Assembly (NCBI RefSeq): GCF_004006235.1
Contig: NZ_CP034753.1
Coordinates: 1,550,001 to 1,614,000 of the forward strand
DNA: 64,000 bases
From: Agromyces sp. LHK192
GTDB lineage: Bacteria > Actinomycetota > Actinomycetes > Actinomycetales > Microbacteriaceae
Reading direction: 5' to 3'
Under the pieces are notes generated by a model. The model had not been told where the DNA came from. It saw only the letters and a list, made by a program, of their open reading frames with translations, and did no database searches. Both the position numbers and the translations under genes were made by a program. This document shows, one piece after another, positions 1 to 15,343 of the stretch (the stretch's first letter is position 1; each line of letters opens with the position of its first letter).

Positions 1-2
1 AG

Positions 3-1256
3 GTGGTGAACGACGAGGTCCGCCAGATGTTCCAGGCCGAGGCCAACCTCATGGCGCAGCTGTCCAGCCACCCGGCGATCCTGACCGTGTTCCAGGCGAG
101 CGTCGCCGCCGACGGCCGTCCGTACCTCGTGATGGAGTACTGCGCGTCGACGCTCGGACGCCGGTATCGGGTCGAGCCGTTGCCGCTGAGCGAGGTGCTG
201 TCGATCGGTGTCCGCATCGCGGGCGCGGTGGAGTCCGCGCATCGCCAGGGCGTGCTGCACCGCGACATCAAGCCCTCCAACATCCTGACGACCGCGTACG
301 GGCATCCGGTCCTCTCGGATTTCGGGATCGCGGCGACGGTCGGCGAAGCCACCCGGACCGACTCGATCGGCCTGTCCGTGCCGTGGTCGGCCCCGGAGGT
401 GCTCCGCGACGAGGTGTCGGGCACCGTGGCGAGCGAGGTCTGGTCGCTGGGCGCGACGGTCTACTCGCTGCTGGTCGGGCGCAGCCCCTTCGAGATCCCC
501 GACGGCGACAACGGCTCGGCCGCGCTCGGGCAGCGCATCGAGCGCGCGAAGCTGCCGCCGACCGGTCGGACCGACGTACCGCCCGACCTCGAGCGCGCCC
601 TGGCGAAGGCCATGCGCCGCAGGCCCGCGGAACGCCAGGCGAGCGCCCTCGAGTTCGTGCGCGACCTGCAGGCCGTCGAGGACGACCTGGGTCTGCGTCA
701 GACGCCCGTCGACGTCGAGGTCGAGGAGTGGGCGGTCGCGACCGCGAGCGACGTCGACGAGCGGACCCGCGTGGGCGGCGGGCACGCGATTCCCGCGACT
801 CGGGGCGCGCGTCGTCGCCGTCGCGTCTCCCCTCCCGCGGCTGTGACGCCCGAGGCCCGGTCGACCGGGAGCGGGCTCGGCGCGGGCGAGGGGCGGGCGA
901 CCTCGAGGCTGGCCTGGGGGATCGCCGCGGGCGCCGTGCTGCTCGCCGGCCTGGTCACCGCGGCGGCGGCGTTCATCGTGCTGTCGGCGGGGGCGATCCC
1001 GACCGTCGCGGAGGTGCGGTCCGAGGTCGGCCCCGGCGGCGTGACCTTCAGCTGGGACGATCCGGGGATCGCGTCCGGCGACGCGTACCTCGTCAACATC
1101 GACGGCGTCGACGAACCTGCACGTCGCGAGTCCACGATCGTGGTGGATCCCGGCCCGAGCGACCGGGTCTGCGCGTCCGTCCGCGTCAGTCGTGACGGCA
1201 GGACCGGTTCGGCGAGCCCCGAGGAGTGCGTCGACCTGGGGAGCGCGGCGCCGTGA
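3..1256 (+). CDS. Transmembrane Ser/Thr protein kinase (PknB-like), 5'-partial
   Basis: Hanks-type kinase that would phosphorylate Ser/Thr on cytoplasmic targets. The catalytic loop LHRDIKPSN (HRD at residues 86-88 of the visible part), the DFG motif (106-108) and the APEV segment near 130 are intact. The Gly-rich loop and the VAIK lysine are missing because the gene starts before base 1; the in-frame GTG at 3 is probably an internal codon. A basic linker is followed by one membrane helix (about 303-329) and a small exported domain with two Cys and a fibronectin-like look. Its stop overlaps the start of the next gene by 4 bp (GTGA), so the two are translationally coupled. An FHA-domain protein further down the operon is a likely phosphothreonine-reading partner (inference). 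Confidence 0.9.
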   Translation: MVNDEVRQMFQAEANLMAQLSSHPAILTVFQASVAADGRPYLVMEYCASTLGRRYRVEPLPLSEVLSIGVRIAGAVESAHRQGVLHRDIKPSNILTTAYGHPVLSDFGIAATVGEATRTDSIGLSVPWSAPEVLRDEVSGTVASEVWSLGATVYSLLVGRSPFEIPDGDNGSAALGQRIERAKLPPTGRTDVPPDLERALAKAMRRRPAERQASALEFVRDLQAVEDDLGLRQTPVDVEVEEWAVATASDVDERTRVGGGHAIPATRGARRRRRVSPPAAVTPEARSTGSGLGAGEGRATSRLAWGIAAGAVLLAGLVTAAAAFIVLSAGAIPTVAEVRSEVGPGGVTFSWDDPGIASGDAYLVNIDGVDEPARRESTIVVDPGPSDRVCASVRVSRDGRTGSASPEECVDLGSAAP

Positions 1257-4200
1257 TCCGGCTCCCGCGCGTCGAGGTCGCGCCGTCGGCGGTGGTGACC
1301 GGGGTCGTCGCCGTCGCCCTCACCGCCCTCGTCGCGGCGTTCGCCGTCGCATCCGACGGCTATCGCTCGGAACAGGTCGAGTTCGACGACGGGGCGGTGT
1401 GGGTCGCGAACGAGGAGGTCCACGCGGTCGGACGGGCGAACACCGTGCTGCAGGAGCTCAACGCCGCCGTGGAGACCGGTGACGGCCGGATCGATCTCGT
1501 GCAGTCCGGGACGACCGTGCTCGCGGTCGACGCCGACAATGCGCGCGTCTCGGTGCTCGATCCGGCGACGGTCGCGGTCGTCGAGACGGTCGCGGTGCCT
1601 CCCGAGGATCCGACGATCGCGATCGGCGGCGGTCGTGTGGTCGTGGCTTCGGAGGGCAAGATCTGGACGACGCCGGCTGAGGAGTTCGCCGGCTTCGACG
1701 CGGACGGCGAACCGGAGTCCGATTTCGGCCCCGGCTCAGTGGTCGCGGTCGACTCGGAAGGTCGTATCTTCGTCTATCGGCCGGCCACGGGAGAGATCGT
1801 CGAACTGCGTGCATCGGCCGCGGCGACGGTCGAGCGGCGCTGGTCGGTCCCGCCCGTGACCGGCTCGACCCCCGCTGCGCAGTCGCGTCGGATGACCTCG
1901 GTCGACGGTCGATGGGTCGTGTTCGATCCTGACGTGCCGACGCTCAGGGTCGAGGGGCGCGACATCCCGCTCGACGGGTTCGTCGCCGCCGACGACTCCC
2001 CGGTGCTCCAGGCGCCGTCGACGACCGGTGGTGCGGTCGCGATCGCGACCCGGCGCGGACTGGTGACCGTGCCGCTCGACGGCGGCGCGCCGGAGATGGC
2101 GGTCTCGGGGCGCGCCGGTGTCCCCGCCCAGCCGGTCAGGCATGCCGGATGCCTCCACGCCGCGTGGGCGGACGGCACGGCGTGGCGCGAGTGCGGCTCG
2201 GCCGCGACCACCGAGGACCTGGAGCGCGGCGGCGCATCCGCCTCGCTCGTCTTCCGGACCAACGGCGAGGCGCTCGTGCTCGACTCGCCGGGCGACGGAC
2301 GGAGTTGGGCCGCTGCCGACGACTACGGCCTGATCGACGACTGGTCCCTGCTCGACGACGTCCGCGACGACCGCACGGTCGAGTTGAACGACCCGCACGA
2401 GCCGCCCGCGCTCGAGGCCGCGCAAGCCGAGCCGACGGCCGTCGACGACGATCTCGGCGCCAGGCCCGGGCGCTCGACGCTGCTGCCGGTCCTGTTGAAC
2501 GACTTCGACCCGAACGGCGACGTGCTGGCGATCCGCTCGGTCGACGGCGCGCTCCCGCCCGGCGCCGTCGTCGACGTCGTCTCCGACCGTCAGGAGTTGC
2601 AGCTCACCCTGGCGGACGACGCCTCGGGCTCGGTGTCGTTCTCGTACAGCGTCGACGACGGTCGCGGCGGTGTCGCGACCGCGAGCGTCCGGGTCGCGGT
2701 GCGCGCCCCGGAGGAGAACGCCGCGCCCGAACAGCGTCGGGTGACCACGGCCGACGTCGAGGCCGGCAAGCGGCTCACCCTCCCGAGCCTCGGCGAGTGG
2801 GTCGATCCCGACGGCGATCCGTTCTTCCTGGCGAAGGCGGAGGTCGCAGGCTCCGATCGGGTCACCTCGACGCCCGACGGCGTCGTCGTGTTCAACGCGG
2901 CGGCGGCGCCCGGCGGCGGGCGAACGGTCGGGCTGTCCGTCTCGGACGGCCGCGACGTCGGCGCCGGGGTCCTCTCGATCGACGTGCGGGAGGAGGGCGG
3001 GGTCCCGCTGACGACCGAGCCGTTCATCCTGACCGCATCCACCGGCGAGGAGATCTCGATCGATCCGATGCCGCACGTGCGCGGCGGTGCCGGCTCGGTC
3101 CGCCTCGCGTCGGTGCCTGCGAAACCGGATGCCTCGATCACCGCCGATCTCGACCGCGGCACCTTCCGGTTCTCCAGCGCCGTCCCGCGCACGCACCTGA
3201 TCGAGTACACGGTCACGGACGGCGGGGACCCGGTGACCGGGCAGGTGCGCATCGAGGTGGAGACGCCGCCGACCCGTGACACGACGCCGGTGACCGTCCC
3301 GCACACCGCCTTCGTGCGGACCGGACAGGCGGTCGACGTCGACGTGCTCGCCGGCGACATCGACCCGCTGGGCGGGGTGCTGCTCGTCACCGAGGTCGAG
3401 GACGGGTCCGGAGCGGGTGTCCGGACCGAGGTGATCGAGCACCGCATGCTGCGGGCGACGCTGCTCGGCCCGCTGCAGTACGGATCGATCGACGTGCACT
3501 ACCGGGTCAGCAACGGCCTCGCGGACGCGGAGGGCGTCGTGACGATCGTCGAGGTTCCGACGGCGGCCGCGCCGCAGCCCCCGGTCGCGTCGCCCGACCA
3601 CGCGTCCGTGCGGACGGGCGACGTCGTCGACATCCTCGTCCTCGACAACGACGAGCACCCCGACGGCGAGCCGCTGACGCTGGCGCCCGAACTCGCCACG
3701 GACCCTGAGGACGGGCTCGCGTTCGTCTCCGACCGCAAGGTGCGCTACCTCGCTCCGGACACGCCGGGCGAGTACCGGCTCGCGTACCGCGTGCTGGGTC
3801 CCGACGGGCAGGAGGCCACGGCGGTCGTCGACATCGCCGTTCGGGCGGCGGATGCCGAGACGAACCGGGGACCGGTCCCGGCCGCGGTGACGGCCCGCGC
3901 GATCGCGGGCGAGACGATCCGCATCCCGATCCCGCTCGGGCAGGTCGATCCCGACGGCGACTCCGTGCAACTGCTCGGGCAGGTGAGCGCTCCCGATCGC
4001 GGCACCGTGGTCACGCGCGGGGCCGACCAGCTGGAGTACACCGCCGGAGAGTACTCGTCGGGCACCGACTCCTTCCGGTACGAGGTCGCCGATTCCCTGG
4101 GTGCGCGGGCCACCGGCACCGTCAGGGTCGGGATCGCCCCGCGGATGGACGGCGCGCGCGCGCCGATCGCCGTCCGCGACGCCGTCACGGTGCGACCGGG

Positions 4201-7132
4201 GCGCACGATCGCGGTGCGCGTCCTCGAGAACGACTCCGACCCGAACGGCGGGTCGCTCGCCATCACGGACGTCGAGCCGAACGCCGGCGACGGCGACGCG
4301 CGCGTCGCCGACGAGGCCGTCCTCATCGACGTCCCCGCGGAGCCGGGGGACTCGTCGTACTTCTACACGATCGAGAACGAGCAGCTCGCGACCGCCTCGT
4401 CGATCATCCAGGTGCACGCCGATCCGGATGCCCCGTTGTCGCGGCCCGAGGCATCCGACGTGGTCCTGGGCCTCAGCGAGATCGTCGATCGGTCCGTGAT
4501 CGACGTCGACGTCCTCGAGGAGGCCTTCATCGCGGATGCCGCCGCGGAACGCGCCGAGGTCTCGCTCGTCTCCGGATACGAGGACGACGCGCTCGTCCGC
4601 GCCGACGGCTCGATCCGCCTGCAGGTGTACGACGAGCGGCGGATCGTGCCCTTCACCATCGGGCACCCGGACGACCCGACGCTGACCTCGACCGCCGTCG
4701 TCGTCGTGCCGGGTCGCGACGACGCGATCCCGCAGCTCCGCCGCGATGCGCCGGCGGTGCGAGTCGACAGCGGCGACGAGGTCCGGCTCGACCTCGACGA
4801 CTACGTGATCGCCGCCTCGGGCCGACCCGTCCGGATCACCGACCGCTCCTCGCTGACGGCCTCGCACTCCGACGGCACCGACCTGATGGTCGACGAGGAC
4901 ACCGTCAGGTTCCGCTCGGAGGCGGGGTACTTCGGCCCCGCATCGGTCTCCTTCGTGGCCAGCGACGGCGACCCGGAGACCGATCCGACGGCGAGGACCG
5001 GGACCATCGTGATCCCGATCACGGTCCGCCCGGCGGAGGGCCTGCCTCCGGTGTTCACGGGCGCCGTGCTCGACCTCCAACCCGACGAGTCCAGGCGGAT
5101 CGGACTGTCGCGGGTCACGAAGCAGGCCGGCGGCTCGACCTCGACCCTCGAGTACGAGATCGGCACCGTCCCCGACGGGTTCACCGCGGAACTCGACGAC
5201 GACGAGCTCGTCGTGCGTGCGGACGGCGACGCGCCGCGCGGGCTCACCGGCGAGATCCCCGTCTCGGTCTCCGATGCCGCGGGGGTCGGAACCCCGGGCG
5301 TCATCGAACTGCGGGTCGTCGCGTCCACGAGGCCCAGGGCCGAGCCGGTGCCGGACATCGCCGTCGTCGAGCGCGGGCGGACGACCTCGGTGGACGTCCT
5401 CGAGAACGATCGGTCGGGCAATCCCTTCCCGGACACGCCGCTGCGCGTGGTCGGCGTGCGCGGAACCGATGCCCAGAACCTCCCCGACGGGGTGCGCGTC
5501 GCGCCGAGCAGCGACCGCTCCACGCTGCTCGTCACGGTGGATCGTGACGCGGAGGCGGTCAACGCGACCGTGCAGTACCAGGTCGCCGATGCGACCGGCG
5601 ACTCCGACCGGTACGCGTGGGGCACCGTGTCGATCTCCGTGCAGGATCGGCCGGATCCGATCACTGACGCACGGGTCACCGGGTTCGGAGACCGCTCCCT
5701 CGACCTCGCGTTCGGTGCCGGCGCGGCCAACAACTCGCCCGTCACCGAGTATCAGATCGACCTGCTCGATGCGCGCACCCGGGCACGGGTGGGCGGTTCG
5801 ACCTGTGCGGCGACCACGTGCACCGTGTCGACCCCGGCCAACGGCGAGGGGGCCGCCGTGGCCGTCCGGATCCAGGCGAGGAATGCGATCGGCCTCTCGG
5901 ACGCGGTCGAGGTGGTGGGCTCGTACTGGTCGGACGTCATCCCGGCGGCGCCCGGCGGCGTGCAGGCCCTTCCCTTGGACGGCAGGCTCCGCATCCGATG
6001 GGATCCGGTGTCGACCGGATCGGGGAGTGCGGTGCGTTCCTACGTGGTGACGGTGGCGGGCGTGGCCACCGAGGTCGGCGCAGGCGGCGTCTGCACGGCG
6101 ACCGCGTGCACCGTCGACTCGCAGGGCCTCGCGAACGGCAGCCAGGTTCCCGTCGAGGTGAGTGCGCGCAACCAGGCGTTCCCCTCGTTGACCTCGTGGA
6201 ACACCGCCTCGACCGTGGGCACGCCGTTCGGTCCGCCGATCGCCGGCGGCATCCAGGTCGCGGCCGACGCGGCATCCGGCATCGCGACGGTCGCGTGGTC
6301 GCCCTTCGGCGGCAACGGCGATGCGATGGCCGGATACTTCGTCCAGCAGCTCGTCCCCGGATCGACCGACCTCCCGGCGGGACCGCAGGCCTGCCGCGTC
6401 ACCTCGCCGGCTCCCGGGGAGGTCGTCGCGCCCACGACGGGAGGCAACGTCGCGGCCGCGGTCCGGACGGGACCCGACGCGACCTCGATCCAGTTCAGCG
6501 GGCTCACCGCCGAGGGCGCCACCTACGCGTTCGTCGTGTGGGGCTTCAACCGGGCCGGCTGCGTGCCCTCTGCGATCACGACGGCCGTCGTCCGCGCCGG
6601 GCCGCCTTCGGTCTCGGCCGTCGGCAACGAGATGGGCTGGCTCGGGCAGACGACCTGGGACCGGTACGTGTCCGGCGTGCAGACCTCGACGGCGGCGCAG
6701 ACGCTGCAGATCGTGGCCACGGACGGGAGCGGCGCGCACCTCGGAGCACCGCGCGAGTTCTCCGGGGCCGGCTGGCTCCGCGACCTCTTCGGCCGGCCGT
6801 TCGGGCAGACCGCGTACTTCCAGGTCCGCGGGTGCACCGTGTGGGGGTCGTGCGGCCCCTGGTCGCAGACCTTCCCCGCCGGGCAGGCCCCGACGCTCAC
6901 CTTCGAGGTCCCCGGGCGAACCTGGAACGCCGGCGCGCGAGGCTGGAGCTGGTGGAACCAGCCGGACAACGGCGGCATCCCCGCGACGTTCCGGTGCGGC
7001 GTCGAGGGCGACGAGACCGGTGGGCCCGCCCGCGGGTGGGGCTGGTGCGACGTGCCGGAGGCGGAACCGGAGGACCGGGTCTGGTTGGATGTCGAGGTGG
7101 CCGGCGTGACGGCGAGATTCTGGAACCGATGA
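1253..7132 (+). CDS. Giant membrane-anchored Ig-like/fibronectin type III surface protein
   Basis: A 1959-residue exported protein. GTG at 1253 is chosen because it overlaps the kinase stop by 4 bp and puts a hydrophobic segment at about residues 8-30, a signal anchor. About residues 35-380 are beta-rich and look propeller-like (repeated V.AVD / R.FVY strands). About eleven bacterial Ig/cadherin-like repeats of 85-110 residues follow, several with the linker signature LxNDxDPNGD (for example LLNDFDPNGD, VLENDSDPNG). Two or three FN3-like domains come next, then a Trp-rich C-terminus. Cys pairs in the FN3 region suggest disulfides outside the cell. No sortase motif and no C-terminal helix are seen, so anchoring is N-terminal. 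The exact role is unknown; adhesion or a cell-surface scaffold is inferred from domain type and neighbours. Confidence 0.85.
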   Translation: MIRLPRVEVAPSAVVTGVVAVALTALVAAFAVASDGYRSEQVEFDDGAVWVANEEVHAVGRANTVLQELNAAVETGDGRIDLVQSGTTVLAVDADNARVSVLDPATVAVVETVAVPPEDPTIAIGGGRVVVASEGKIWTTPAEEFAGFDADGEPESDFGPGSVVAVDSEGRIFVYRPATGEIVELRASAAATVERRWSVPPVTGSTPAAQSRRMTSVDGRWVVFDPDVPTLRVEGRDIPLDGFVAADDSPVLQAPSTTGGAVAIATRRGLVTVPLDGGAPEMAVSGRAGVPAQPVRHAGCLHAAWADGTAWRECGSAATTEDLERGGASASLVFRTNGEALVLDSPGDGRSWAAADDYGLIDDWSLLDDVRDDRTVELNDPHEPPALEAAQAEPTAVDDDLGARPGRSTLLPVLLNDFDPNGDVLAIRSVDGALPPGAVVDVVSDRQELQLTLADDASGSVSFSYSVDDGRGGVATASVRVAVRAPEENAAPEQRRVTTADVEAGKRLTLPSLGEWVDPDGDPFFLAKAEVAGSDRVTSTPDGVVVFNAAAAPGGGRTVGLSVSDGRDVGAGVLSIDVREEGGVPLTTEPFILTASTGEEISIDPMPHVRGGAGSVRLASVPAKPDASITADLDRGTFRFSSAVPRTHLIEYTVTDGGDPVTGQVRIEVETPPTRDTTPVTVPHTAFVRTGQAVDVDVLAGDIDPLGGVLLVTEVEDGSGAGVRTEVIEHRMLRATLLGPLQYGSIDVHYRVSNGLADAEGVVTIVEVPTAAAPQPPVASPDHASVRTGDVVDILVLDNDEHPDGEPLTLAPELATDPEDGLAFVSDRKVRYLAPDTPGEYRLAYRVLGPDGQEATAVVDIAVRAADAETNRGPVPAAVTARAIAGETIRIPIPLGQVDPDGDSVQLLGQVSAPDRGTVVTRGADQLEYTAGEYSSGTDSFRYEVADSLGARATGTVRVGIAPRMDGARAPIAVRDAVTVRPGRTIAVRVLENDSDPNGGSLAITDVEPNAGDGDARVADEAVLIDVPAEPGDSSYFYTIENEQLATASSIIQVHADPDAPLSRPEASDVVLGLSEIVDRSVIDVDVLEEAFIADAAAERAEVSLVSGYEDDALVRADGSIRLQVYDERRIVPFTIGHPDDPTLTSTAVVVVPGRDDAIPQLRRDAPAVRVDSGDEVRLDLDDYVIAASGRPVRITDRSSLTASHSDGTDLMVDEDTVRFRSEAGYFGPASVSFVASDGDPETDPTARTGTIVIPITVRPAEGLPPVFTGAVLDLQPDESRRIGLSRVTKQAGGSTSTLEYEIGTVPDGFTAELDDDELVVRADGDAPRGLTGEIPVSVSDAAGVGTPGVIELRVVASTRPRAEPVPDIAVVERGRTTSVDVLENDRSGNPFPDTPLRVVGVRGTDAQNLPDGVRVAPSSDRSTLLVTVDRDAEAVNATVQYQVADATGDSDRYAWGTVSISVQDRPDPITDARVTGFGDRSLDLAFGAGAANNSPVTEYQIDLLDARTRARVGGSTCAATTCTVSTPANGEGAAVAVRIQARNAIGLSDAVEVVGSYWSDVIPAAPGGVQALPLDGRLRIRWDPVSTGSGSAVRSYVVTVAGVATEVGAGGVCTATACTVDSQGLANGSQVPVEVSARNQAFPSLTSWNTASTVGTPFGPPIAGGIQVAADAASGIATVAWSPFGGNGDAMAGYFVQQLVPGSTDLPAGPQACRVTSPAPGEVVAPTTGGNVAAAVRTGPDATSIQFSGLTAEGATYAFVVWGFNRAGCVPSAITTAVVRAGPPSVSAVGNEMGWLGQTTWDRYVSGVQTSTAAQTLQIVATDGSGAHLGAPREFSGAGWLRDLFGRPFGQTAYFQVRGCTVWGSCGPWSQTFPAGQAPTLTFEVPGRTWNAGARGWSWWNQPDNGGIPATFRCGVEGDETGGPARGWGWCDVPEAEPEDRVWLDVEVAGVTARFWNR

Positions 7133-7148
7133 GGCGAGGAGCGGCGGA

Positions 7149-8120
7149 ATGAGCATGACCCCCGAGCAGGCGACCGGCTTCGCCGCATCGCTGGATCGAC
7201 TCGTCGGTGCGGTCGAGGAAGTGCTGCTCGGGAAGAACCGGATCGTGCGACTGGCCTTCACGGCGCTGCTCAGCGAGGGCCACCTCCTGCTCGAGGACGT
7301 GCCCGGCACCGGCAAGACCTCGCTCGCGCGGGCGATGGCGCAGTCCGTGTCCGGGGCGAGCAATCGCGTGCAGTTCACCCCCGACCTCCTCCCGGGGGAC
7401 ATCACCGGCGTCACGGTGTACGACCAGGGGACCGGCCGGTTCTCCTTCCACCCCGGGCCGGTGTTCGCGAACATCGTGCTCGCCGACGAGATCAACCGGG
7501 CGAGCCCGAAGACCCAGTCGGCGCTGCTCGAGGTCATGGAGGAGGGGCAGGTCACGATCGACGGGCAGACGCACCCGGTGGGGCATCCGTTCATGGTGAT
7601 CGCGACCCAGAACCCGATCGAGCAGGCGGGGACCTACCGGCTTCCCGAAGCGCAACTGGACCGGTTCCTGATGCGCAGCTCGATCGGGTACCCGGACCAC
7701 GCCTCCACGATCCGGATCCTCGAGGGCGCGGAGCATCGCGCGCACGAGCACGTCGTCGAACCGCAGCTGGCACCCGAGGAGGTCGTGGAGATGGCCGCGC
7801 TCGCGCGGCGCGTGTTCGTCGACCCGACCATCCACGACTACGTCTCCAGGCTCGTGGAGGCCACCCGGACGGCGCGGGAGGTCCGGCTGGGCGTCAGCGT
7901 CCGCGGTGCGCTCAGCCTGATCCGGGCGGCGAAGACGCACGCCGCGGGCCGCGGCCGGCACTACGTGGTCCCCGACGACGTCAAGGCGCTCGCGGAGCCC
8001 GTGCTCGCCCACCGGCTCATCCTCGATGCCGAGGCCGAGTTCGACGGCGTGACGGCGTCGAACCTCATCTCGCAGGTGCTCATCGAGACGCCACCGCCCT
8101 CGGCGAGGCAGGCGGGGTGA
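7149..8120 (+). CDS. MoxR-family AAA+ ATPase
   Basis: A 323-residue AAA+ ATPase of the MoxR group, which act as chaperones assembling or activating partner proteins, often encoded beside DUF58 proteins. Walker A is GTGKT (residues 53-57). Walker B/MoxR signature ADEINRASPKTQSALLE lies at about 113-130, and the sensor region has IATQNPIEQAGTYRLPEAQLDRF, typical of MoxR. The ATG at 7149 follows a GAGGAGCGG-type ribosome site and lies 16 bases after the Ig-protein stop. The stop overlaps the DUF58 start by 4 bp. Length is normal for the family. A role in remodelling the envelope complex encoded here is inference. Confidence 0.93.
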   Translation: MSMTPEQATGFAASLDRLVGAVEEVLLGKNRIVRLAFTALLSEGHLLLEDVPGTGKTSLARAMAQSVSGASNRVQFTPDLLPGDITGVTVYDQGTGRFSFHPGPVFANIVLADEINRASPKTQSALLEVMEEGQVTIDGQTHPVGHPFMVIATQNPIEQAGTYRLPEAQLDRFLMRSSIGYPDHASTIRILEGAEHRAHEHVVEPQLAPEEVVEMAALARRVFVDPTIHDYVSRLVEATRTAREVRLGVSVRGALSLIRAAKTHAAGRGRHYVVPDDVKALAEPVLAHRLILDAEAEFDGVTASNLISQVLIETPPPSARQAG

Positions 8121-9424
8121 GCGCGCCGCGCCCACCCGCAGCCGCGGACGGCGGCGCTCGTCAGGGCGCCCTCGCCGCGGCGATCGCCCGGGTGGTGCGC
8201 CTCGCGCAGCGCGCCGCGGCCGCCGCGAGGAGCCTCGTCGCGGGTGCACGCCAGGTCGTCATGCCCACGGGCTGGGTCGTGATCGGCTCGGGGACGGCAT
8301 CGCTGGTCGCCGGGATCGTGCTCGACTGGACGGAACTCATCGCACTCGGCACCGGTCTGGTGAGCTGCGCCGGCATCGCTGCACTGTGGCTGATCGGCAC
8401 GGGTTCGTCGACCGTCACGCTCACGCTGCCGGCGAGCCGCGTCGCTGCGGGCGAACCCGCCGAGGTCCGCATCCTCGCATCGAATCCGGGGCACCGACGG
8501 CTCGGCGGCGTGCAACTCGAGGTGCCGGTCGGCGACCGCGTCGTCGACCGCATCCTCCCCGCGCTGCCGCGCGGCGGCGTCGTCGACGACCGGGTGCCGA
8601 TCCCGACCCACCGCAGGGGGGTCGTCGCCGTGGGTCCGGCACGGACGGTGCGCGCGGACCCCATCGGCATCGTCCGCCGGGAGATCGTGTGGTCGGGCGT
8701 CGAGATGCTGCACGTCCATCCGCGCACGATCGCCGTCTCGCCGCTCAGCAGCGGGTTCGTCCGAGACCTCGAGGGCACGCCGACCCGTGACCTGACCTCG
8801 AGCGACATCGCCTTCCACGCGCTTCGGGAGTACGCACCCGGAGACGATCGCCGCCATATCCACTGGCGCAGTTCCGCCAAGACGGGGACGTTCATGGTGC
8901 GGCAGTACGAGGAGACGCGCCGGAGCCGGATGCTCGTGCTCCTCGACCTCGACCATGATGCCTACGCCGACGACGACGAGTTCGAGCTCGCGGTGAGCGC
9001 CGCGGCGTCGATCGGCGCTCGCGCGCTCCGCGACGCCAGGTCGCTCGCCTTCGTCGTGCCGGGAGGGCCGGGCTCGCGCTCGCCGATGCTGGAACTGCCG
9101 ACCGTGTCCCGCGACCGGCTGCTCGACGCCCTGTGCCTGGTCGAACGGCGCGCACGCCCGACGCCGCTGCCCGACCTCGCCCGCGCGGCCGCCGAAGCGC
9201 TCACCGGCGTCTCGGTCGCGTTCCTCGTCACCGGTTCGGCACGGACCGTGACGCCGTTGCGCGGGGCTGCGGCGAGGCTCCCGGCGACGGTCGAGGCGAT
9301 CGGGATCCGATGCGCTCCGGAGGGTCAGGCGTCGGTTCGCCAGGCCGGTGGCCTGACCGTCTTCGGCATCGGGTACCTCGAGGACCTGCAGGCGATGCTG
9401 TCGAGGAAGGCGTCCGCGGCGTGA
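8117..9424 (+). CDS. DUF58 domain membrane protein
   Basis: A 435-residue protein that begins GTGA, overlapping the moxR stop. An Ala/Arg-rich N-terminus is followed by two membrane helices (about 50-95), then the DUF58 core. The family signature is clear at about 235-255: LREYAPGDDRRHIHW followed by RSSAKTG. The C-terminal half has a vWA-like fold feature (LLVLLDLD-type strand with DHD). DUF58 proteins nearly always pair with MoxR ATPases and a TgpA-like transglutaminase, as here. Biochemical function of the family is poorly known; a membrane scaffold or substrate of MoxR is the usual guess. Confidence 0.9.
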   Translation: MSAPRPPAAADGGARQGALAAAIARVVRLAQRAAAAARSLVAGARQVVMPTGWVVIGSGTASLVAGIVLDWTELIALGTGLVSCAGIAALWLIGTGSSTVTLTLPASRVAAGEPAEVRILASNPGHRRLGGVQLEVPVGDRVVDRILPALPRGGVVDDRVPIPTHRRGVVAVGPARTVRADPIGIVRREIVWSGVEMLHVHPRTIAVSPLSSGFVRDLEGTPTRDLTSSDIAFHALREYAPGDDRRHIHWRSSAKTGTFMVRQYEETRRSRMLVLLDLDHDAYADDDEFELAVSAAASIGARALRDARSLAFVVPGGPGSRSPMLELPTVSRDRLLDALCLVERRARPTPLPDLARAAAEALTGVSVAFLVTGSARTVTPLRGAAARLPATVEAIGIRCAPEGQASVRQAGGLTVFGIGYLEDLQAMLSRKASAA

Positions 9425-11757
9425 GCGCCCTCACCGAACATCGGCGACCTCCGGAGCACGGGGCGCGGACCCCCGCGCCCCGCTCCCGACCGTTCGGCGC
9501 GGGCGGCGTGATGGACGTCGCGCTGCTGGCCGCGCTCTTCGCAGCGGCGCTGATCCCGTGGTGGCCGATCCACGAGCACGGCTGGTTCCTGGCCTGCGTC
9601 GGCGTGGCGCTCGCGACCGGGCTCGCGATCGGTGCCGTCGGCGCCCTGCGTCGCTGGCCGTCGTGGGCGGTCGCCCTGACGATCGCTTCGGCGTACCTGC
9701 TCCTGGGGGTACCGCTCGCGGTGCCGTCCCGCGCGCTGTTCGGCGTGCTCCCGACAGCGGCCGGGATGGTGGACCTGTTGACCGGCACGGCGCTCTCCTG
9801 GAAGCAGTTGGTGACGGTCCAGGCGCCGGTCGGCGCGTATCAGTCGCTGCTCGTGCCGGCGTTCCTGCTCACCCTGGTCGGCAGCGCGATCTCGGCGACG
9901 ATCGCGCTGCGCACCAGGCATCCGATCGCCGCGGTCGTCCCGCCTTCAGTCGTGTTCGCCTCCGGCATCGCGCTCGGCGTGGTGCACGAGCAGTTCGCCG
10001 TGGCGGCCGGGCTCGCGTTCCTGGTCGCGGTCGTCGCCTGGCTCGTCAGGATCGCGATCACCAGGCGCCGCGCCCTGGGAGCCTCGCGTCGGCTGGAGGC
10101 CGCCCTGGCGGACCTCAGACGATGGGTCGGCGCGGCCGCGATCCTGCTGGTCGCCCTCGTGGCGGCGGCGGTCGTCGCCGTCGTGGTACCGACCCCGCAG
10201 CGCACGGTCGTCCGCTCCGAGATCCAGCCGGCGTTCGAGCTCCGAGACCTGCGGACGCCGCTCGCCGGATTCCGGAACGCCTTCGCGCCGGACGCCGCAG
10301 ATCGGCCCATGCTCGCGGTTCGCGGACTTCCGGAGGACGTGGGGCTTCGCCTGGCGACGCTCGACACCTACGACGGGGTCGTCTATTCCGTCGGCGGCGA
10401 CGACGGTCGCGAGATCTCGAGCCGATTCGCGAGGCTGCCGTATCGCATCGACCGGACCGGGGCCCCCGGCGAGCAGGTCGTGATCGACGTCCGCGTGCTC
10501 GGGTACGAGGATGTCTGGGTGCCGGGTGCGGGCCTGCTCGCCGAGATCGCGTTCGGCGGGCCCCGTGCCGCGAGCCTCGCCGACGAATTCGTCGTCAACG
10601 ACGTCACGGGCGTCGCCGCCGTGCAGGGCGGAATGGCCGCAGACGACTCGTTCACCGCCGAATCGGTCGTCGTCGACCCGGTCGACGACGGCGCGCTCGA
10701 CACGCTGCGGCCGGGCACCGCGGTGCTCCCGCCCGGCCCCGAGCTGCCCGAGGAACTGCGCGGCTGGCTGCTCGACCACACGCCTTCGACGGGGGAACCC
10801 GGGGAACGGCTCGCGGCCGCGATCACCGCCGTGAGGCAGGAGGGGTACGTGTCGCACGGGCAGGAGGGGGAGGCTTCGAGTCGGTCCGGGCACTCGCTCG
10901 ATCGCCTCGTCGAACTCGTGATGGATCGCCCCATGGTCGGCGACGGTGAACAGTACGCGGTGCTCTCGGCGCTGTTCGCTCGGGAGATCGGGTTCCCGGC
11001 TCGGGTGGCGGTCGGGTACCTCCCGACGGCGGACGACGAGCCCGATGCCGACGGGTGGATGGTGCTGACCGGGGAGCGGCTGCAGGCGTGGATCGAGGTC
11101 CGCGACGCAGAGGGTCGATGGATCCAGGTGGATCCGAATCCCGAGGTGCGGGAGATCCCGGATCGCCAACCCGAGGATCCGACCGAGGTGTCGCGTCCGC
11201 AGTCGGTGCCGCCGCCGCCCGAGGATCGGACCCCGGTCGAGGACCTGGGTGCGGACTCCGACCTGACGCCGGACGACGGCGAGGGCGCAGACGACCCATG
11301 GGTGGGCATCCTGCTCGCCGTGCTCGCCTGGACGGGCGTCGCGGCGCTCGCCGTGCTCGTCCTGGCGAGCCCCATCCTCGTCATCATGGCCGCGAAGGCG
11401 GCCCGCCGACGGCTCCGGCGCCGAGCAGCCAGCGGCCGCCAGCGCGTCCAGGGCGCGTGGCAGGAGTTCGCCGACCTCGCGACCGACTACGGCATCCCGG
11501 TGCCGTCGGGCACCCGCGCCGAACAGGCCGCGGCGATCGGCGGGTTCGACTCCGTCGTGCTGGCGGGGGTCGTCGACCGGCTGCTGTACGGTCCCGAGAC
11601 CCCCGGGAAGGCGGAGGCGAGGCGCGTGTGGGACGCCGTCGACGGGTTGAGTCGTCGATTCGCGACCGATGCCGGCGCCGGTCGGGCGTTCCGGGCGGCG
11701 ATCTCGCTGGGATCGCTCGGCGGCTACGCTGGCTCCCGGAGGGGAGGGCGCGCATGA
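9421..11757 (+). CDS. TgpA-like transglutaminase-domain membrane protein, catalytically degenerate
   Basis: A 778-residue protein starting at GTG 9421 with a 4-bp overlap to the DUF58 stop. Several membrane helices occupy about residues 25-260 (DUF3488-like), then a large exported region, then a transglutaminase-core domain at about 490-580, a helix near 625-650 and a cytoplasmic tail (DUF4129-like). In active family members the core reads G-[DY]-C-E-Q with catalytic Cys, then H-A-W and V-D-P. Here the three sites read GDGEQY (Gly509 in place of Cys), LQAWIEV (Gln555 in place of His) and VDPNP (Asp571 kept). Two of the three catalytic residues are therefore absent and the domain should not be a working transglutaminase or protease. 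It probably serves as a structural or binding part of the complex (inference). Confidence 0.88.
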   Translation: MSALTEHRRPPEHGARTPAPRSRPFGAGGVMDVALLAALFAAALIPWWPIHEHGWFLACVGVALATGLAIGAVGALRRWPSWAVALTIASAYLLLGVPLAVPSRALFGVLPTAAGMVDLLTGTALSWKQLVTVQAPVGAYQSLLVPAFLLTLVGSAISATIALRTRHPIAAVVPPSVVFASGIALGVVHEQFAVAAGLAFLVAVVAWLVRIAITRRRALGASRRLEAALADLRRWVGAAAILLVALVAAAVVAVVVPTPQRTVVRSEIQPAFELRDLRTPLAGFRNAFAPDAADRPMLAVRGLPEDVGLRLATLDTYDGVVYSVGGDDGREISSRFARLPYRIDRTGAPGEQVVIDVRVLGYEDVWVPGAGLLAEIAFGGPRAASLADEFVVNDVTGVAAVQGGMAADDSFTAESVVVDPVDDGALDTLRPGTAVLPPGPELPEELRGWLLDHTPSTGEPGERLAAAITAVRQEGYVSHGQEGEASSRSGHSLDRLVELVMDRPMVGDGEQYAVLSALFAREIGFPARVAVGYLPTADDEPDADGWMVLTGERLQAWIEVRDAEGRWIQVDPNPEVREIPDRQPEDPTEVSRPQSVPPPPEDRTPVEDLGADSDLTPDDGEGADDPWVGILLAVLAWTGVAALAVLVLASPILVIMAAKAARRRLRRRAASGRQRVQGAWQEFADLATDYGIPVPSGTRAEQAAAIGGFDSVVLAGVVDRLLYGPETPGKAEARRVWDAVDGLSRRFATDAGAGRAFRAAISLGSLGGYAGSRRGGRA

Positions 11758-12287
11758 GGTGTCGGATCTGCTCGGCGGAACTGCCGGACGGTGCGATGTT
11801 CTGCGGCGAGTGCGGGTCCTCGACCAGCGCGACCCCGGAGTCCCGCCGGCGGGACCCACGACCGGGCGACACGTTGATCCTGGATCGCGACTCGCTGTCG
11901 ACGGGTGTCGTGAGCGTGCCCGTCGACGGGTTCCGCCCGGTCCCGGCCGCGCCGGAGGTCGCGCCCGCCTTCACGCTCCGGTTCTCCACCGGTGAGACGT
12001 GGACGGTCAGCGGATCGGGACTCGTGGGACGGCGACCGATGCCCCAGCCGGGGGAGGTGTTCGACCATCTCGTGCAGATCGTCGATCGCACGCTCTCGGT
12101 GTCGAAGACGCACCTCGAGTTCGGTTCCCACGAAGGCCTGTTCTGGATCGCGGACCGGTTCTCGGGAAACGGCACGATCGTCCGCCGGCCCGACGACGGC
12201 GCGCTCCGGTGCGAGCCGGGTCGCCGCTACCTCGTCCCGCGCGGCAGCACCGTGCTGCTGGCGGACCAGTCGTTCGACGTCGCCTGA
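11754..12287 (+). CDS. Zinc-ribbon FHA-domain protein
   Basis: A 177-residue soluble protein. ATG 11754 overlaps the preceding stop (ATGA). The N-terminus is a zinc ribbon (CRIC at 3-6 and CGEC at 17-20), followed by a linker and an FHA domain at about 85-175. The FHA core residues are present: GLVGRRP, VSKTHLEF and SGNGTIV, matching GR...S..H...D..S.NGT. FHA domains bind phosphothreonine peptides, so a regulatory link with the operon's Ser/Thr kinase is likely; FHA proteins next to EccC-type ATPases are common in actinobacterial type VII-like loci. Last gene of the tightly coupled run before a 113-bp gap. Confidence 0.88.
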   Translation: MRCRICSAELPDGAMFCGECGSSTSATPESRRRDPRPGDTLILDRDSLSTGVVSVPVDGFRPVPAAPEVAPAFTLRFSTGETWTVSGSGLVGRRPMPQPGEVFDHLVQIVDRTLSVSKTHLEFGSHEGLFWIADRFSGNGTIVRRPDDGALRCEPGRRYLVPRGSTVLLADQSFDVA

Positions 12288-12400
12288 CCGGGCCCCCCGG
12301 AGCTCCGCGACCGTTCCTGCACCGCGACGACATCGGCCGACCCGCGGACTGATGCCCGGAGCGGGGCCCGCGCGCCGGTGCGCGACGCTGGAATGAGCGG

Positions 12401-15343
12401 ATGCCCGACGCCACCGAGCCGCCGCACGTCGACCACGCCGTCGACCTCGCATTCGCCCTGCCGCCCGCCGTCGCCGAAGACCAGCCGTCGGGATTCCCCC
12501 TCCTCGCGACCATCGCACCGATCGCCGGCGCGGTCGTGCTCTGGCTGATCACCGGTTCGCCGCTCTCGCTCGTGTTCGCCGCGCTCGGTCCGGTGGTCGC
12601 GGTCGCGTCGATCCTCGACTCGAGGCGCCAGGCCCGCGTCAGGAGCCGCAGGGCCGCGGCTTCCCGGGCGACGGCGATCACCGACCTCGAGGCCCGCGTC
12701 GCGAACGCCCACGCGCGGGAGCGCGCGGCCGGTCGCCGCCGGTCGCCGACGGCTCGCCAGGTGCTCCGCATGGTGCACGGCGAGCACTGGGGACCAGCGC
12801 CGCACGTGCACGTCGTCGTCGGGCGCGGGCCGGTGCCCAGCACCGTCCGGGTGACGGGGGCACCGGCCGACGATTCGGACCGGGCGTTCCTCGCGCGATC
12901 ATCCGTCGTCGCCGACGGCCAGGTCGTCGTGGACGGCGCGGCCGGAGTCGGGTTCGTCGGTCCGCTCCTGCTCGCGGAAGCCGCGGCACGCGCGGTGCTC
13001 GTGCAGGTCGGGCATCGATCCGCGCCCGGGGCTATCGGAGTGCGGGCGCCGGACACCCCGGGCTGGGCGTGGGCCGCCGACCTGCCGCATCACGGGACCT
13101 CGACCGTCGTCGAGATCGTCGATGCGGGCGACGGCGAGGGGCGGGGAGCGGTGCGGTCCGGGCCGCCCGCGAGCCCCGGCGCATCGCGACTCGTGATCGC
13201 GGTCGCGGCCGAGGCGGGCCTCGTACCGCCTGACGTACGCACCGTGATCCGGATCCGCACGCCGACCCGGGCGGTGGTCGAGCGCGAGGCCGGGATGCCC
13301 GGTGCGCGCGAGATCGTCCCGGACCTCGTCTCGGCCGCGGAGGCGGCCGGGTGGGCGGCCGGCCAGCGTCGGGCCGCCGAGCGCGCCGGACTCGGCGGTG
13401 CAGCCGCCCTGCTCCCGCGGACGGTGCCGTTCGACGCGCTCGAGCAGGGGCGACGGGACCCGGGCGACCGCGGCTCGCTCGCCGTCGTCGTCGGGCGGGC
13501 GGCCGCCGGGCCCCTGTCGATCGACCTGGTGCGCGACGGCCCGCACGCGCTCGTCGCCGGAACGAGCGGCAGCGGCAAGAGCGAGTTCCTGCTGACCTGG
13601 CTGACGGCGATGGCCGTCGCCCATCCGCCCGGGCTCGTCGCGTTCCTGCTGGTCGACTTCAAGGGCGGCGCGGCATTCGAGCCGCTGCGCGGGCTGCCGC
13701 ACGTCGCGGGGATCGTCACCGACCTCGACGAGTCCGAGGCGAGACGCGCCGTCGAGAGCCTCCGTGCCGAGCTCGGCCGCCGCGAGCGGCTCCTGCGCGA
13801 CGTCGGGGCCCGAGACGTGTCCGCCCTGACGCCCGACGTCGAACTGCCGCGTCTGGTGATCGTGATCGACGAGTACCAGGCGATGGTCGGCAGGTTCCCC
13901 GAGCTCGGCGACCTCATCGCCGACATCGCGGCCAGGGGGAGGTCGCTGGGTGTGCACCTCGTGCTCGCGGCGCAGCGCCCGAACGGCGTCGTCCGCGACC
14001 AGGTGTCGGCGAACTGCGGACTGCGGGTGTCGATGCGAGTGCTCGAGCGCGGCGACAGCACCGCGGTGATCGGCGACCCGCGTGCCGCCGAGCTCGATGC
14101 GTCGGCGCCCGGTCGGGCGATCGTGGCCACGGCCGAACGCGGACCGGTCGAGTTCCAGGCAGCATGCGCGTCGGAGGTGCTCCCGGTGATCCGCGCGCAG
14201 ATCACGGGGAGGGCGGTCCGCCGACCGTGGCTCGATCCGCTGCCCGCGCGGATCGCGGCGGACGACGTCGCACGACTCGTCGGCGCCGACGACCGGACGA
14301 CGACTGACGGCATCGTGTTCGGCGTGCTGGACGACCCCGAGCGGCAGCGCCGCCGCCTCGCGAAGTGGCATCCGCAGTCGGAGGGGAACCTGATCGTGGT
14401 GGGTCGCCCGGGCAGCGGGCGGACGACGGCCCTCGGCGCGATCGCACGTGGCTTCGCGGCACGGCACGGCACCGGTTCGGTCGTCGTGCTCGGCGGTCCG
14501 AGGAGCGCCGAATGGGATGCGCTGCACGAGGAGCTCGACCGGGTGCGAGCGCAGGCGCTCGGCGCGTCGCGCCTGCTGGTCGTGGACGACGTCGAGGCGA
14601 GATATCGTACCTGGCCGGAGGAGCACCGTTGCGAGGCCCAGGCGGTGATCGAGGCGCTCCTGCGCGAGGGGCGCAGCGCGGGCCTTCGCGTCGCGGCATC
14701 GGCGACGTCGTCGCAGGCGTTGCCCGTCGGGCTGCGCGAGGCGTTCACCTCCGCGGTGCTGCTCCAGCACGCCTCCCGCGCCGACCTCGTGCATTCGGGC
14801 GGCGACGGCGCCCTGTGGCGCGTCGGCGAACCGGCGGGCGGCGGCCAGTGGCAGGGCCTGCGGGCACGCGTCGTCGACACCGGGCCACCCGCGCTCCCGG
14901 CCGAACGGCCGGTGCCGCCGCTCCGGGTGCGCCCCGACCGCCCGCTGGCCGTGTGCACCGACGCGGTCGACGTCGACGCCCGAACCCTTCGCGCGACCCT
15001 CGGGCGCGAGGTCGTCGAACTCGGCGCCGGCGCGCCGTCGCCGCGCGACCTCCTCGAGGCGCTCGACCCCGGCGCCGAGCGCACCGGAGGTCGCGCGGCC
15101 GGCGCGCGCGGCGAGGCCCGGCCGCCCCTGGTCGTGGCGGACGCGGACGGGTGGGCGGCGAACTGGGCGATCCTGGCCGCCGTCCGCGAACGGGGCACGA
15201 TCGTGGTGCACGGCGGCGCGGCGGAGTACCGTGCGGTCGCCCGAGACCGTCGGGTCCCACCCCTGCTGGACGCCGGGCGAGGCCAGTGCCTGGTGCTCTC
15301 GGCCGGTGCTCCGACGCGACGATGCATCTGGCCATCCCGCTGA
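12401..15343 (+). CDS. EccC/FtsK-SpoIIIE-like membrane ATPase
   Basis: A 980-residue motor related to EccC, the ATPase that drives substrates through type VII (ESX) secretion systems. Two N-terminal helices (about 30-70) and a variable region lead to a first ATPase domain with Walker A GTSGSGKSE (about 387-395), the family motif LVDFKGGAAF, Walker B LVIVIDEYQAM and LVLAAQRPNGVV. A second domain starts at about 668 with GRPGSGRTT, where the Walker A Lys is Arg, so ATP hydrolysis there is doubtful. The C-terminus looks like a vestige of a third domain without a P-loop. Full EccC proteins are longer with three domains. The 113-bp gap before it shows no clear promoter; it is probably cotranscribed with the FHA gene. 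Confidence 0.85.
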   Translation: MPDATEPPHVDHAVDLAFALPPAVAEDQPSGFPLLATIAPIAGAVVLWLITGSPLSLVFAALGPVVAVASILDSRRQARVRSRRAAASRATAITDLEARVANAHARERAAGRRRSPTARQVLRMVHGEHWGPAPHVHVVVGRGPVPSTVRVTGAPADDSDRAFLARSSVVADGQVVVDGAAGVGFVGPLLLAEAAARAVLVQVGHRSAPGAIGVRAPDTPGWAWAADLPHHGTSTVVEIVDAGDGEGRGAVRSGPPASPGASRLVIAVAAEAGLVPPDVRTVIRIRTPTRAVVEREAGMPGAREIVPDLVSAAEAAGWAAGQRRAAERAGLGGAAALLPRTVPFDALEQGRRDPGDRGSLAVVVGRAAAGPLSIDLVRDGPHALVAGTSGSGKSEFLLTWLTAMAVAHPPGLVAFLLVDFKGGAAFEPLRGLPHVAGIVTDLDESEARRAVESLRAELGRRERLLRDVGARDVSALTPDVELPRLVIVIDEYQAMVGRFPELGDLIADIAARGRSLGVHLVLAAQRPNGVVRDQVSANCGLRVSMRVLERGDSTAVIGDPRAAELDASAPGRAIVATAERGPVEFQAACASEVLPVIRAQITGRAVRRPWLDPLPARIAADDVARLVGADDRTTTDGIVFGVLDDPERQRRRLAKWHPQSEGNLIVVGRPGSGRTTALGAIARGFAARHGTGSVVVLGGPRSAEWDALHEELDRVRAQALGASRLLVVDDVEARYRTWPEEHRCEAQAVIEALLREGRSAGLRVAASATSSQALPVGLREAFTSAVLLQHASRADLVHSGGDGALWRVGEPAGGGQWQGLRARVVDTGPPALPAERPVPPLRVRPDRPLAVCTDAVDVDARTLRATLGREVVELGAGAPSPRDLLEALDPGAERTGGRAAGARGEARPPLVVADADGWAANWAILAAVRERGTIVVHGGAAEYRAVARDRRVPPLLDAGRGQCLVLSAGAPTRRCIWPSR

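Follow-up and report, generated by a model that had tools for sequence, protein, structure and literature searches.

A 64,000-nucleotide stretch of the 4.09-Mb single-contig genome of Agromyces sp. LHK192 (genome positions 1,550,001-1,614,000; hereafter the window) begins within a run of genes for a Ser/Thr protein kinase, a giant surface protein with immunoglobulin-like (Ig) repeats, MoxR, DUF58, TgpA and FHA proteins, and an ATPase resembling EccC of type VII secretion systems (T7SS), here called EccCs. We established the gene content, order, homology and motifs of this run, the linkage of such blocks to T7SS loci in other families, and the modular gain and loss of the block. By homology, the six genes preceding EccCs are the PFNA operon known from Bifidobacterium. 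New here, against the open literature searched, are (i) an Agromyces PFNA operon beside a stripped-down EccC-like motor and (ii) the linkage of PFNA and T7SS in other families; PFNA and kinase/FHA-type T7SS variants were already known. We consider it somewhat more probable than the toss of a coin that the locus, which is without WXG100, descends from a kinase-type T7SS locus as a derived relative of such kinase-controlled loci; our confidence is slightly lowered because the collinearity with the Janibacter-type locus described below has exceptions.

A PFNA operon followed by an EccC-like ATPase gene

All genes of the run lie on the plus strand, in the order FHA, PP2C, kinase, Ig protein, MoxR, DUF58, TgpA, zinc-ribbon-FHA and EccC-like ATPase. 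A preliminary description had placed seven genes, the first six joined by 4-bp overlaps or a 16-base gap, at positions 3-15343; our coordinates agree, and all seven frames are coding, as GC at third codon positions tracks each of them across 1-15343. The features are as follows.

1..1256 (in-window part), plus strand: Ser/Thr protein kinase, Pkb2-like, with kinase domain, one transmembrane (TM) helix and ectodomain (Pfam Pkinase, expectation value (E) 1.6e-39; HRDIKPSN, DFG and APE motifs; TM-like stretch 358-376)
1253..7132, plus strand: membrane-anchored surface protein of 1959 aa with N-terminal TM helix, beta-propeller, Big_9/cadherin-like repeats and FN3-like C-terminus (Pfam Big_9, E 3.5e-60; model; Foldseek)
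1283..1351, plus strand: predicted N-terminal TM helix of the Ig protein, residues 20-42 counted from 1226 (hydropathy, model)
1394..2335, plus strand: predicted beta-propeller of the Ig protein, residues 57-370 counted from 1226 (model, Foldseek)
7149..8120, plus strand: MoxR-family AAA+ ATPase (Pfam AAA_3, E 7.1e-63; bpMoxR, E 2.5e-10)
8117..9424, plus strand: DUF58 protein with two TM-like stretches near its N-terminus (Pfam DUF58, E 1.7e-11; hydropathy)
9421..11757, plus strand: TgpA-type membrane protein with transglutaminase-like domain (Pfam Transglut_core, E 1.5e-10, and TgpA_N, E 4.9e-9, on the longer frame 9133-11754; TM-like stretches)
11754..12287, plus strand: zinc-ribbon and FHA protein of 177 aa (zinc ribbon below the Pfam cut-off; FHA motif read in the translation)
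12401..15343, plus strand: EccC/EssC-like ATPase (EccCs) of 980 aa with TM hairpin, D0, D1, D2 and a C-terminus without P-loop (Pfam FtsK_SpoIIIE, E 1.8e-29; PDB profile; model)
13559..13582, plus strand: Walker A motif of ATPase domain D1, GTSGSGKS (kept in 40/40 aligned relatives)
14402..14425, plus strand: P-loop of the second ATPase domain, GRPGSGRT, assigned to D2 and not D3 (motif alignment, domain scoring)

The overlaps join kinase and Ig genes (1253-1256), MoxR and DUF58 (8117-8120), DUF58 and TgpA (9421-9424) and TgpA and zinc-ribbon-FHA (11754-11757), and the 16 bases separate the Ig and MoxR genes. The kinase, described earlier as the first gene, keeps its identity as a kinase but is cut by the window edge: its true start lies at genome position 1,549,856 (L007:3856 in the upstream stretch), 145 bases before the window, and the protein has 466 aa. 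A PP2C gene and a second FHA gene, both envisaged upstream in the preliminary description, are present there. The FHA gene (L007:1901-2911, 336 aa) overlaps the PP2C gene (L007:2908-3711, 267 aa) by 4 bp, the latter ends 144 bases before the kinase start, and both belong to the same run. WXG100 or EccD-like genes, for which the upstream region was likewise read, were not among the open reading frames (ORFs) scanned.

In excerpts of PMC8430577, PMC6803598 and PMC10688814, the PFNA operon of Bifidobacterium consists of pkb2, fn3, aaa-atp (MoxR), duf58 and tgm, optionally followed by prpC, a hypothetical gene and fha. All five core genes are present here on one strand and in PFNA order; the optional PP2C and FHA genes are present as well, but upstream or of the zinc-ribbon type. 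Four loci of one other family (f4; L200-L203) encode kinase, Ig, MoxR and DUF58 proteins in 4/4 cases, TgpA in three and PP2C in two, as called; L202 is from Bifidobacterium, since several named proteins of that genus share 88-90% identity with its TgpA, and the other three bear the same family code. The f4 Ig proteins match that of the window in propeller and repeats (4/4), and the f4 loci are placed in a common MoxR+DUF58+TgpA tree. That the block is a known operon had been missed in the preliminary description, which read a possible T7SS-related system and did not name PFNA. The FN3 protein of Bifidobacterium has been characterized in a passage of PMC10688814 with the words 'It is found only in Bifidobacterium'. 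For the gene family as a whole, sequence matches contradict this restriction: the first 500 residues of the Ig protein were matched in 124/150 sampled Microbacteriaceae genomes (E <= 1e-12), and the operon is present in Agromyces, Cryobacterium, Humibacter, Planctomonas and others.

The genome itself contains three Ig places, A (the window), B (Ig gene at 2.44 Mb) and C (Ig gene at 0.65 Mb). Judged by eye, the PFNA-like operons B (2,433,592-2,443,292, minus strand, L013/L014) and C (from 648,886, plus strand, L015/L016) contain genes that look like those for kinase, PP2C and FHA proteins; in the stretches read, EccC was not called beside either of them. Genomes G021 and G054 likewise have three Ig and three TgpA places each. 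Bifidobacterium and several other families carry the block without EccC in the stretch read.

EccCs is an EccC/EssC relative with one intact ATPase domain and a second P-loop domain, so the preliminary assignment as EccC-like holds. Its best PDB sequence match is T. curvata EccC (profile E 6.6e-107), with YukB and EccC5 also matched; its N-terminal part matches ESX-3 EccC3 in the PDB profile search, and the NCBIfam EssC/EccC models match below their own cut-offs. The structural model (predicted local distance difference test (pLDDT) 88) comprises TM hairpin, D0, D1, D2 and a short C-terminal domain, and Foldseek places EccC and EssC first (E 4.1e-36; best TM-score 0.48 by query). In D1, the DE of Walker B is retained along with Walker A in 40/40 aligned relatives. 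The second domain scores 88-116 bits against D2 vs 13-26 bits against D3, the last 130 residues match D3 faintly (best 10 bits), and neither motif nor domain scoring reveals an intact third ATPase domain. A motif scan found three P-loops in 15/24 EccC proteins from PFNA-linked loci, some of the 24 being cut, and among 14 EccCs two in 11 and one in three. Pfam finds no FHA domain in EccCs, in which about 30 residues precede the TM hairpin. The first ten named relatives of the gene are from Agromyces, and the protein of the same-genus genome G139 is identical to that of Agromyces seonyuensis (L072).

No WXG100 gene is near the locus: matches in the genome lie only at 2.89 and 3.11 Mb, more than 1.3 Mb away. 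WXG100 is also absent among the genes called in 80 related loci, gene calls being sparse in L097 and L101, which are poorly covered in this respect. The signal peptide is bound by ATPase 3 of EccC. The loss of an intact D3 fits with the lack of WXG100 matches at the related loci and near the locus itself. ATPases 2-3 of T. curvata EccC have been solved with a signal peptide (title of PDB 4n1a). EccB, EccD, EccE and MycP are not among the neighbour genes scanned, to which the search for the last three was confined. With no ESX parts in the scanned upstream ORFs and WXG100 so distant, the locus is, as described earlier, very probably not a standard ESX locus.

The Ig protein was described earlier as a giant Ig/FN3 protein. 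Its length of 1959 aa and its Ig-like repeats, which score for Big_9/cadherin repeats in Pfam, bear this out; the FN3 part does not find a Pfam fn3 match in the window protein, PF00041 being present in many close homologues. Its best named relative is from Agromyces. In a model of the first 520 residues (mean pLDDT 82.8), residues 20-42 form a TM helix, 57-370 a propeller of many strands and ~405-495 an Ig domain. Top Foldseek matches are an archaeal S-layer propeller-PKD protein and BamB (TM-scores 0.35-0.40 by query); a PDB sequence search with the propeller gave 0 matches at E <= 1, and hydropathy indicates no C-terminal TM helix. Repeats are missing in 2/29 called proteins having a propeller match, those of L173 (419 aa) and L158 (373 aa), of which L158 may be a decayed gene, because the match in G090 contains an in-frame stop. 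The propeller was matched in all 25 relatives listed and the FN3-like C-terminus in seven of them. Since the propeller is found throughout and the repeats and FN3-like end vary, the propeller is the likelier common working part. L173 is a T7SS locus of Janibacter type, and its version of the giant Ig protein (L173:6427-7686) has the propeller only.

The signalling motifs are intact, HRDIKPSN, DFG and APE in the kinase and DGMGG, GDSR and DNVT in PP2C. Both FHA domains retain, by eye in the translations, GR, S..H and NG, the residues typical of phosphothreonine-binding FHA domains. A paralogue of the zinc-ribbon-FHA gene (L008:10021-10578, BLASTP E 9e-14) adjoins EccC in the WXG100 locus of the same genome. 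This locus (L008; 3,105,001-3,125,000) comprises EccC (1446 aa), the zinc-ribbon-FHA gene, two WXG100 genes and the gene for a 1654-aa protein that carries the domain of tuberculosis necrotizing toxin (TNT); kinase, PP2C, MoxR, DUF58 and TgpA are not called within 16 kb of it.

The run is flanked by an aldehyde dehydrogenase gene upstream of FHA-PP2C and by a solute-binding protein and ABC genes downstream of EccCs, which look unrelated to it; other upstream ORFs in the scan are DUF4192 and frames without match. A promoter/terminator consensus scan gave 0 sites.

Linkage of PFNA-type genes and EccC in other families

We searched 149 genomes of the order for EccC-like proteins (E <= 1e-10), TgpA and the Ig N-terminus (E <= 1e-3) and found matches in 147 (mostly via the first ATPase domain of larger proteins), 93 and 84 genomes, respectively. 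Among the matches listed, an EccC ATPase domain lies on the same strand <=30 kb downstream of the Ig gene in 20/63 genomes outside the Microbacteriaceae, compared with a crude chance expectation of 0.65 genomes; repeat-only Ig matches and short pieces are excluded from this count, with G024 (repeat only) kept. EccC upstream on the Ig strand occurs in 0/63, and on the other strand in two (f4), ~25 kb away. In these f4 genomes (Bifidobacterium-type), G082 and G138, ~25 kb separates PFNA on one strand from a T7SSd-like locus on the other, which encodes a kinase, a TM-looking protein of 140 aa, a further protein of 1735 or 1789 aa and an EccC of 1523 aa.

Viewed from EccC, at least two of MoxR, DUF58 and TgpA lie within 16 kb in 20/68 EccC loci and do not in 48/68; these loci are a chosen, not a random, sample, eight having been picked as PFNA-linked, as was part of the other 60. 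MoxR, DUF58, TgpA, kinase and PP2C are all present in 13/68, a WXG100 match accompanies 12 of the 20 triplet-linked loci, and PP2C and FHA genes accompany EccC in T7SS loci of other families. Two clusters illustrate the arrangement. In G145, the genes encode Ig protein, MoxR, DUF58, an RDD-like membrane protein (by eye), TgpA, PP2C, a 449-aa FHA-like protein, kinase, FHA, EccC (1470 aa), WXG100 and a 365-aa WXG-like protein. In L173, whose FHA protein is 99% identical to a Janibacter melonis protein, the order is PP2C, FHA-like, kinase, a 182-aa piece, FHA, propeller protein, MoxR, DUF58, TgpA, EccC (1463 aa), WXG100 and WXG100.

The window is nearly collinear with this Janibacter-type, WXG100-containing locus. 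Identities to L173 are 36% over 84 aa for the upstream FHA protein, 48% for PP2C, 49% for the kinase, 27% for the propeller, 64% for MoxR, 39% for DUF58 and 29% for TgpA; EccCs aligns to the L173 EccC with 31% over 824 aa and to the G023 EccC with 41% over 394 aa. TgpA and EccC overlap by 4 bp in both L173 and G023. The exceptions are that PP2C and the first FHA gene are swapped, that the second L173 FHA gene has no counterpart in the window, and that the zinc-ribbon-FHA protein matches only the first FHA protein of L173. The gene order is kept in many Microbacteriaceae, and related blocks elsewhere are contiguous with EccC, often with WXG100, which bears out the conservation considered in the preliminary description.

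All four trees were computed in quick mode. In the MoxR+DUF58+TgpA tree, which excludes loci with fewer than two of the three genes, the window type (14/14 rows; Agromyces, Cryobacterium, Humibacter, Planctomonas and others) forms one clade (support 100, starred) that is sister to own copy C together with EccC-linked L153 and L187; the next clade contains EccC-linked L173 and G023 and two loci without EccC. In the EccC D1-D2 tree, which excludes pieces <850 aa, 23/24 PFNA-linked EccC proteins fall into one starred clade of 30 rows, the remaining seven of which have no such link, and the 24th (L188) groups with the WXG100-linked EccC of the Agromyces genome itself.

EccC/FtsK proteins of ~1120-1260 aa in other families were considered as EccCs orthologues and rejected: they adjoin a conserved 82-aa gene (WhiB-looking, by eye), and in 12/12 such rows the genes called within 16 kb include none of the PFNA core. 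They include L042-L051 (G119, G031, G063, G060, G050, G033, G147, G091, G047 and G013), from several families, in which the length applies where the protein is fully called. A further set of EccC/FtsK-type ATPases of ~1200-1730 aa without WXG100 match (L132, L137, L144-L149, L165, L166, L169, L174, L176 and others) adjoins gene runs of ~410/288/312/75/130/140/160 aa that are Tad pilus-like by gene sizes only.

Where EccC belongs to a T7SS locus that is PFNA-linked, and in some that are not (17-row alignment), its first 85 residues look like a ubiquitin fold, with PDB profile matches to redesigned ubiquitin (E 6e-4), MoaD (0.009) and SAMP1 (0.03-0.04); the f4 (Bifidobacterium-type) copy L135, searched on its own, gave no ubiquitin-fold match, and Pfam YukD gave none in the Agromyces genome. 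According to part of PMC11217815, T7SSd has no separate ubiquitin-like gene; a ubiquitin-like domain fused to the ATPase could explain this.

Separable modules and competing explanations

Within the Microbacteriaceae, block and EccCs behave as modules. Among 532 relatives, the best 80 were kept as named loci; in these, the block precedes the EccC-like gene in 36, PP2C with or without zinc-ribbon-FHA directly precedes it without block in 36, and eight are unsettled by rule; no block means no same-strand kinase, Ig, MoxR, DUF58 or TgpA match in up to 10 kb upstream. Flanks are partly common to both states (upstream aldehyde dehydrogenase, ATP-synthase or ABC exporter; downstream alanine dehydrogenase, transporter and asparaginase; labels partly by eye). 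In the EccCs tree, computed like the joint-clade test below with a simpler model, block presence and absence needs six changes, and starred branches force six (44 and 42 rows); seven of the eight unsettled loci were given a state by hand (four block, three no block), and L128 has none. The five core genes therefore come and go as a unit and PP2C-EccCs stays.

These data bear on the main competitor of descent from a kinase-type T7SS locus, namely that EccCs is an independent Microbacteriaceae gene associated with PP2C and zinc-ribbon-FHA, with PFNA inserted between PP2C and EccCs, so that the adjacency is incidental and has no role in secretion. We regard this as unlikely, though deserving serious weight. 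It would account for the equal numbers of loci with and without block, the six state changes and the similar flanks of a Cryobacterium without block, as well as for the 113-base gap between the zinc-ribbon-FHA gene and EccCs. Against it stand the finding that 52/90 copies of the EccC-like gene are preceded, at 11-15 kb and in the same orientation, by the Ig gene, among the Ig matches listed, a gene order nearly that of T7SS-linked PFNA loci, and the partnership of PP2C and FHA genes with EccC in other families.

Descent from a kinase-type T7SS locus is favoured by the agreement with PFNA in order and domains, the homologous Bifidobacterium copies, the EccC linkage in 20/63 genomes, the MoxR+DUF58+TgpA tree, the near-collinearity with L173 and G023, and the zinc-ribbon-FHA paralogue beside the WXG100-linked EccC. 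Several observations weigh against it. The EccC-like gene, found in 90/150 genomes of the family (E <= 1e-72), was tied to the block in the preliminary description; this holds for the 52 copies above and not for the remaining 38/90, partly from contig breaks, nor across the six changes of the core, and by the refuting condition set in that description the tie is weakened. At least 26 family genomes have an Ig place and no EccC-like match (E <= 1e-72), the Ig protein is not matched (E <= 1e-12) in G164, G243 and G246, although these contain the EccC-like gene, and outside the family 43/63 genomes have no EccC in the downstream same-strand window among the EccC matches listed. The counter-evidence to an obligate partnership is thus real, and block and gene are loosely tied. 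The second P-loop of EccCs is variable and is damaged in some relatives. Moreover, the window-type ATPases (14/14) form their own clade outside that of the PFNA-linked EccC, a separation that also favours the independent gene. In an approximately unbiased (AU) test, a joint clade of EccCs and PFNA-linked EccC was not rejected (p-AU 0.154; 41/92 rows). The ATPase tree neither shows nor excludes descent of EccCs from PFNA-linked EccC, and this is the weak point; we rejected the view that phylogeny proves EccCs a shortened PFNA-linked EccC, as the free tree lacks such a grouping and the AU test does no more than fail to reject it.

Host-immune sensing, as proposed for Bifidobacterium, would have the FN3/Ig protein bind cytokines and the kinase signal. 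Agromyces, Cryobacterium, Humibacter, Planctomonas and the others that carry the operon are mostly environmental genera, and the FN3-like C-terminus is matched in few relatives vs the propeller in all; we consider this explanation of the Agromyces locus very improbable. It draws on TNF-alpha binding by a Bifidobacterium FN3 fragment and on co-transcription of PFNA in B. longum, where the kinase phosphorylates MoxR, as reported in parts of PMC8430577 and PMC10688814. An ordinary ESX (T7SSa) locus with its missing parts just outside the window, to which the EccC-like gene might point, is rejected as extremely improbable, as the upstream ORFs scanned encode FHA, PP2C, aldehyde dehydrogenase and DUF4192 proteins or have no match, WXG100 matches are remote, and EccB gave no match in a genome search whose positive control was also silent.

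If the locus descends from a kinase-type T7SS locus, it may work as follows, each step being less probable than the descent itself. The presumed ancestor, of Janibacter type, would have contained PP2C, FHA, kinase, propeller/Ig protein, MoxR, DUF58, TgpA, EccC-type ATPase and WXG100 as one cluster. In Agromyces and relatives, WXG100 would have gone from this place, leaving a fast-evolving EccC with one full ATPase domain and a further P-loop domain, and FHA only in separate genes. The kinase would sense the envelope via its ectodomain, PP2C would reset the signal, and both FHA proteins may read the phosphothreonines. MoxR with DUF58 could assemble or remodel a membrane complex, in which the long propeller/Ig protein would span the wall as the exposed part and TgpA may process or cross-link it. 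The EccC-like ATPase would then power assembly or export of something other than locally encoded WXG100.

A broader proposal is tentative, and we hold it to be rather less than an even bet: PFNA may be the envelope half of an undescribed T7SS subtype, in which kinase/phosphatase/FHA switch, MoxR-DUF58 assembly, TgpA and stalked propeller would form a phosphorylation-gated wall passage fed by EccC. In lineages such as Agromyces and Bifidobacterium it would have been uncoupled from WXG100 export, kept and multiplied (three copies in the Agromyces genome) as a stand-alone surface machine, one Agromyces copy keeping or regaining a stripped-down EccC. The immune-sensing operon of bifidobacteria would in that case be a part of a secretion system that was domesticated. 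Should PFNA have started out as a T7SS partner, the cell envelope and secretion are where to seek its role, and a MoxR-DUF58-TgpA-propeller/Ig class enters the T7SS census. Having neither ATPase 3 nor WXG100 neighbours, EccCs is also a natural test of the remaining EccC domains alone.

Comparison with known systems

The locus joins two literatures, that of PFNA as a Bifidobacterium-specific immune sensor and that of kinase/FHA-type T7SS variants. In the open PubMed Central literature we found no text joining PFNA or MoxR/DUF58 with T7SS and no papers on Microbacteriaceae type VII secretion and EccC; FtsK occurs 0 times in three PFNA papers, where EccC was not looked up, and MoxR and transglutaminase occur 0 times in the main text of PMC11217815, where DUF58 was not looked up.

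Compared with ESX/T7SSa EccC and T7SSb EssC/YukB, EccCs has the same TM hairpin, D0, D1 and D2 fold and motifs; unlike T7SSa EccC and T7SSb EssC, it is only 980 aa long and lacks an intact third ATPase domain, and T7SSa/T7SSb partners were not seen among the scanned neighbours, a scan that covered some of the partner families. Closer in composition are the variants T7SSc-T7SSj, which, in portions of Garrett, Higginson and Palmer 2024 (PMC11217815), include a kinase, a PPM phosphatase and an FHA protein, with a very long Ig protein in T7SSd/e and T7SSd occurring in Bifidobacterium; a small single-TM protein, TsdH, also belongs to T7SSd. The locus shares with T7SSc/T7SSd/T7SSe a TM kinase (TsdD in T7SSd), PPM/PP2C, an FHA protein (TseJ), a very long Ig protein (TsdI/TseI) and an EccC-type ATPase. 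It differs from T7SSd, as described in the same portions, in that TsdI has an N-terminal signal and a C-terminal TM helix, whereas the window Ig protein has an N-terminal TM helix and no C-terminal one by hydropathy, and in that the T7SSd ATPase has an N-terminal FHA domain, whereas EccCs lacks FHA and ATPase 3 and the window locus lacks WXG100.

The PFNA operon of Bifidobacterium, to the extent that the excerpts cited above describe it, has the same five core genes in the same order, with PP2C and FHA genes in addition, and its Ig proteins are homologous. In Agromyces, unlike Bifidobacterium, the core is preceded by PP2C and one of the FHA genes, the other FHA protein has a zinc ribbon, and an EccC-like ATPase gene follows. 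The mycobacterial moxR operon has been compared with PFNA in a passage of a review (PMC12067865), and MoxR-DUF58-transglutaminase triplets are frequent downstream of MoxR Proper genes, as stated in a section of PMC6803598 citing others. This triplet recurs in the window, where genes for a kinase, a propeller/Ig protein, FHA proteins and an EccC-like ATPase accompany it.

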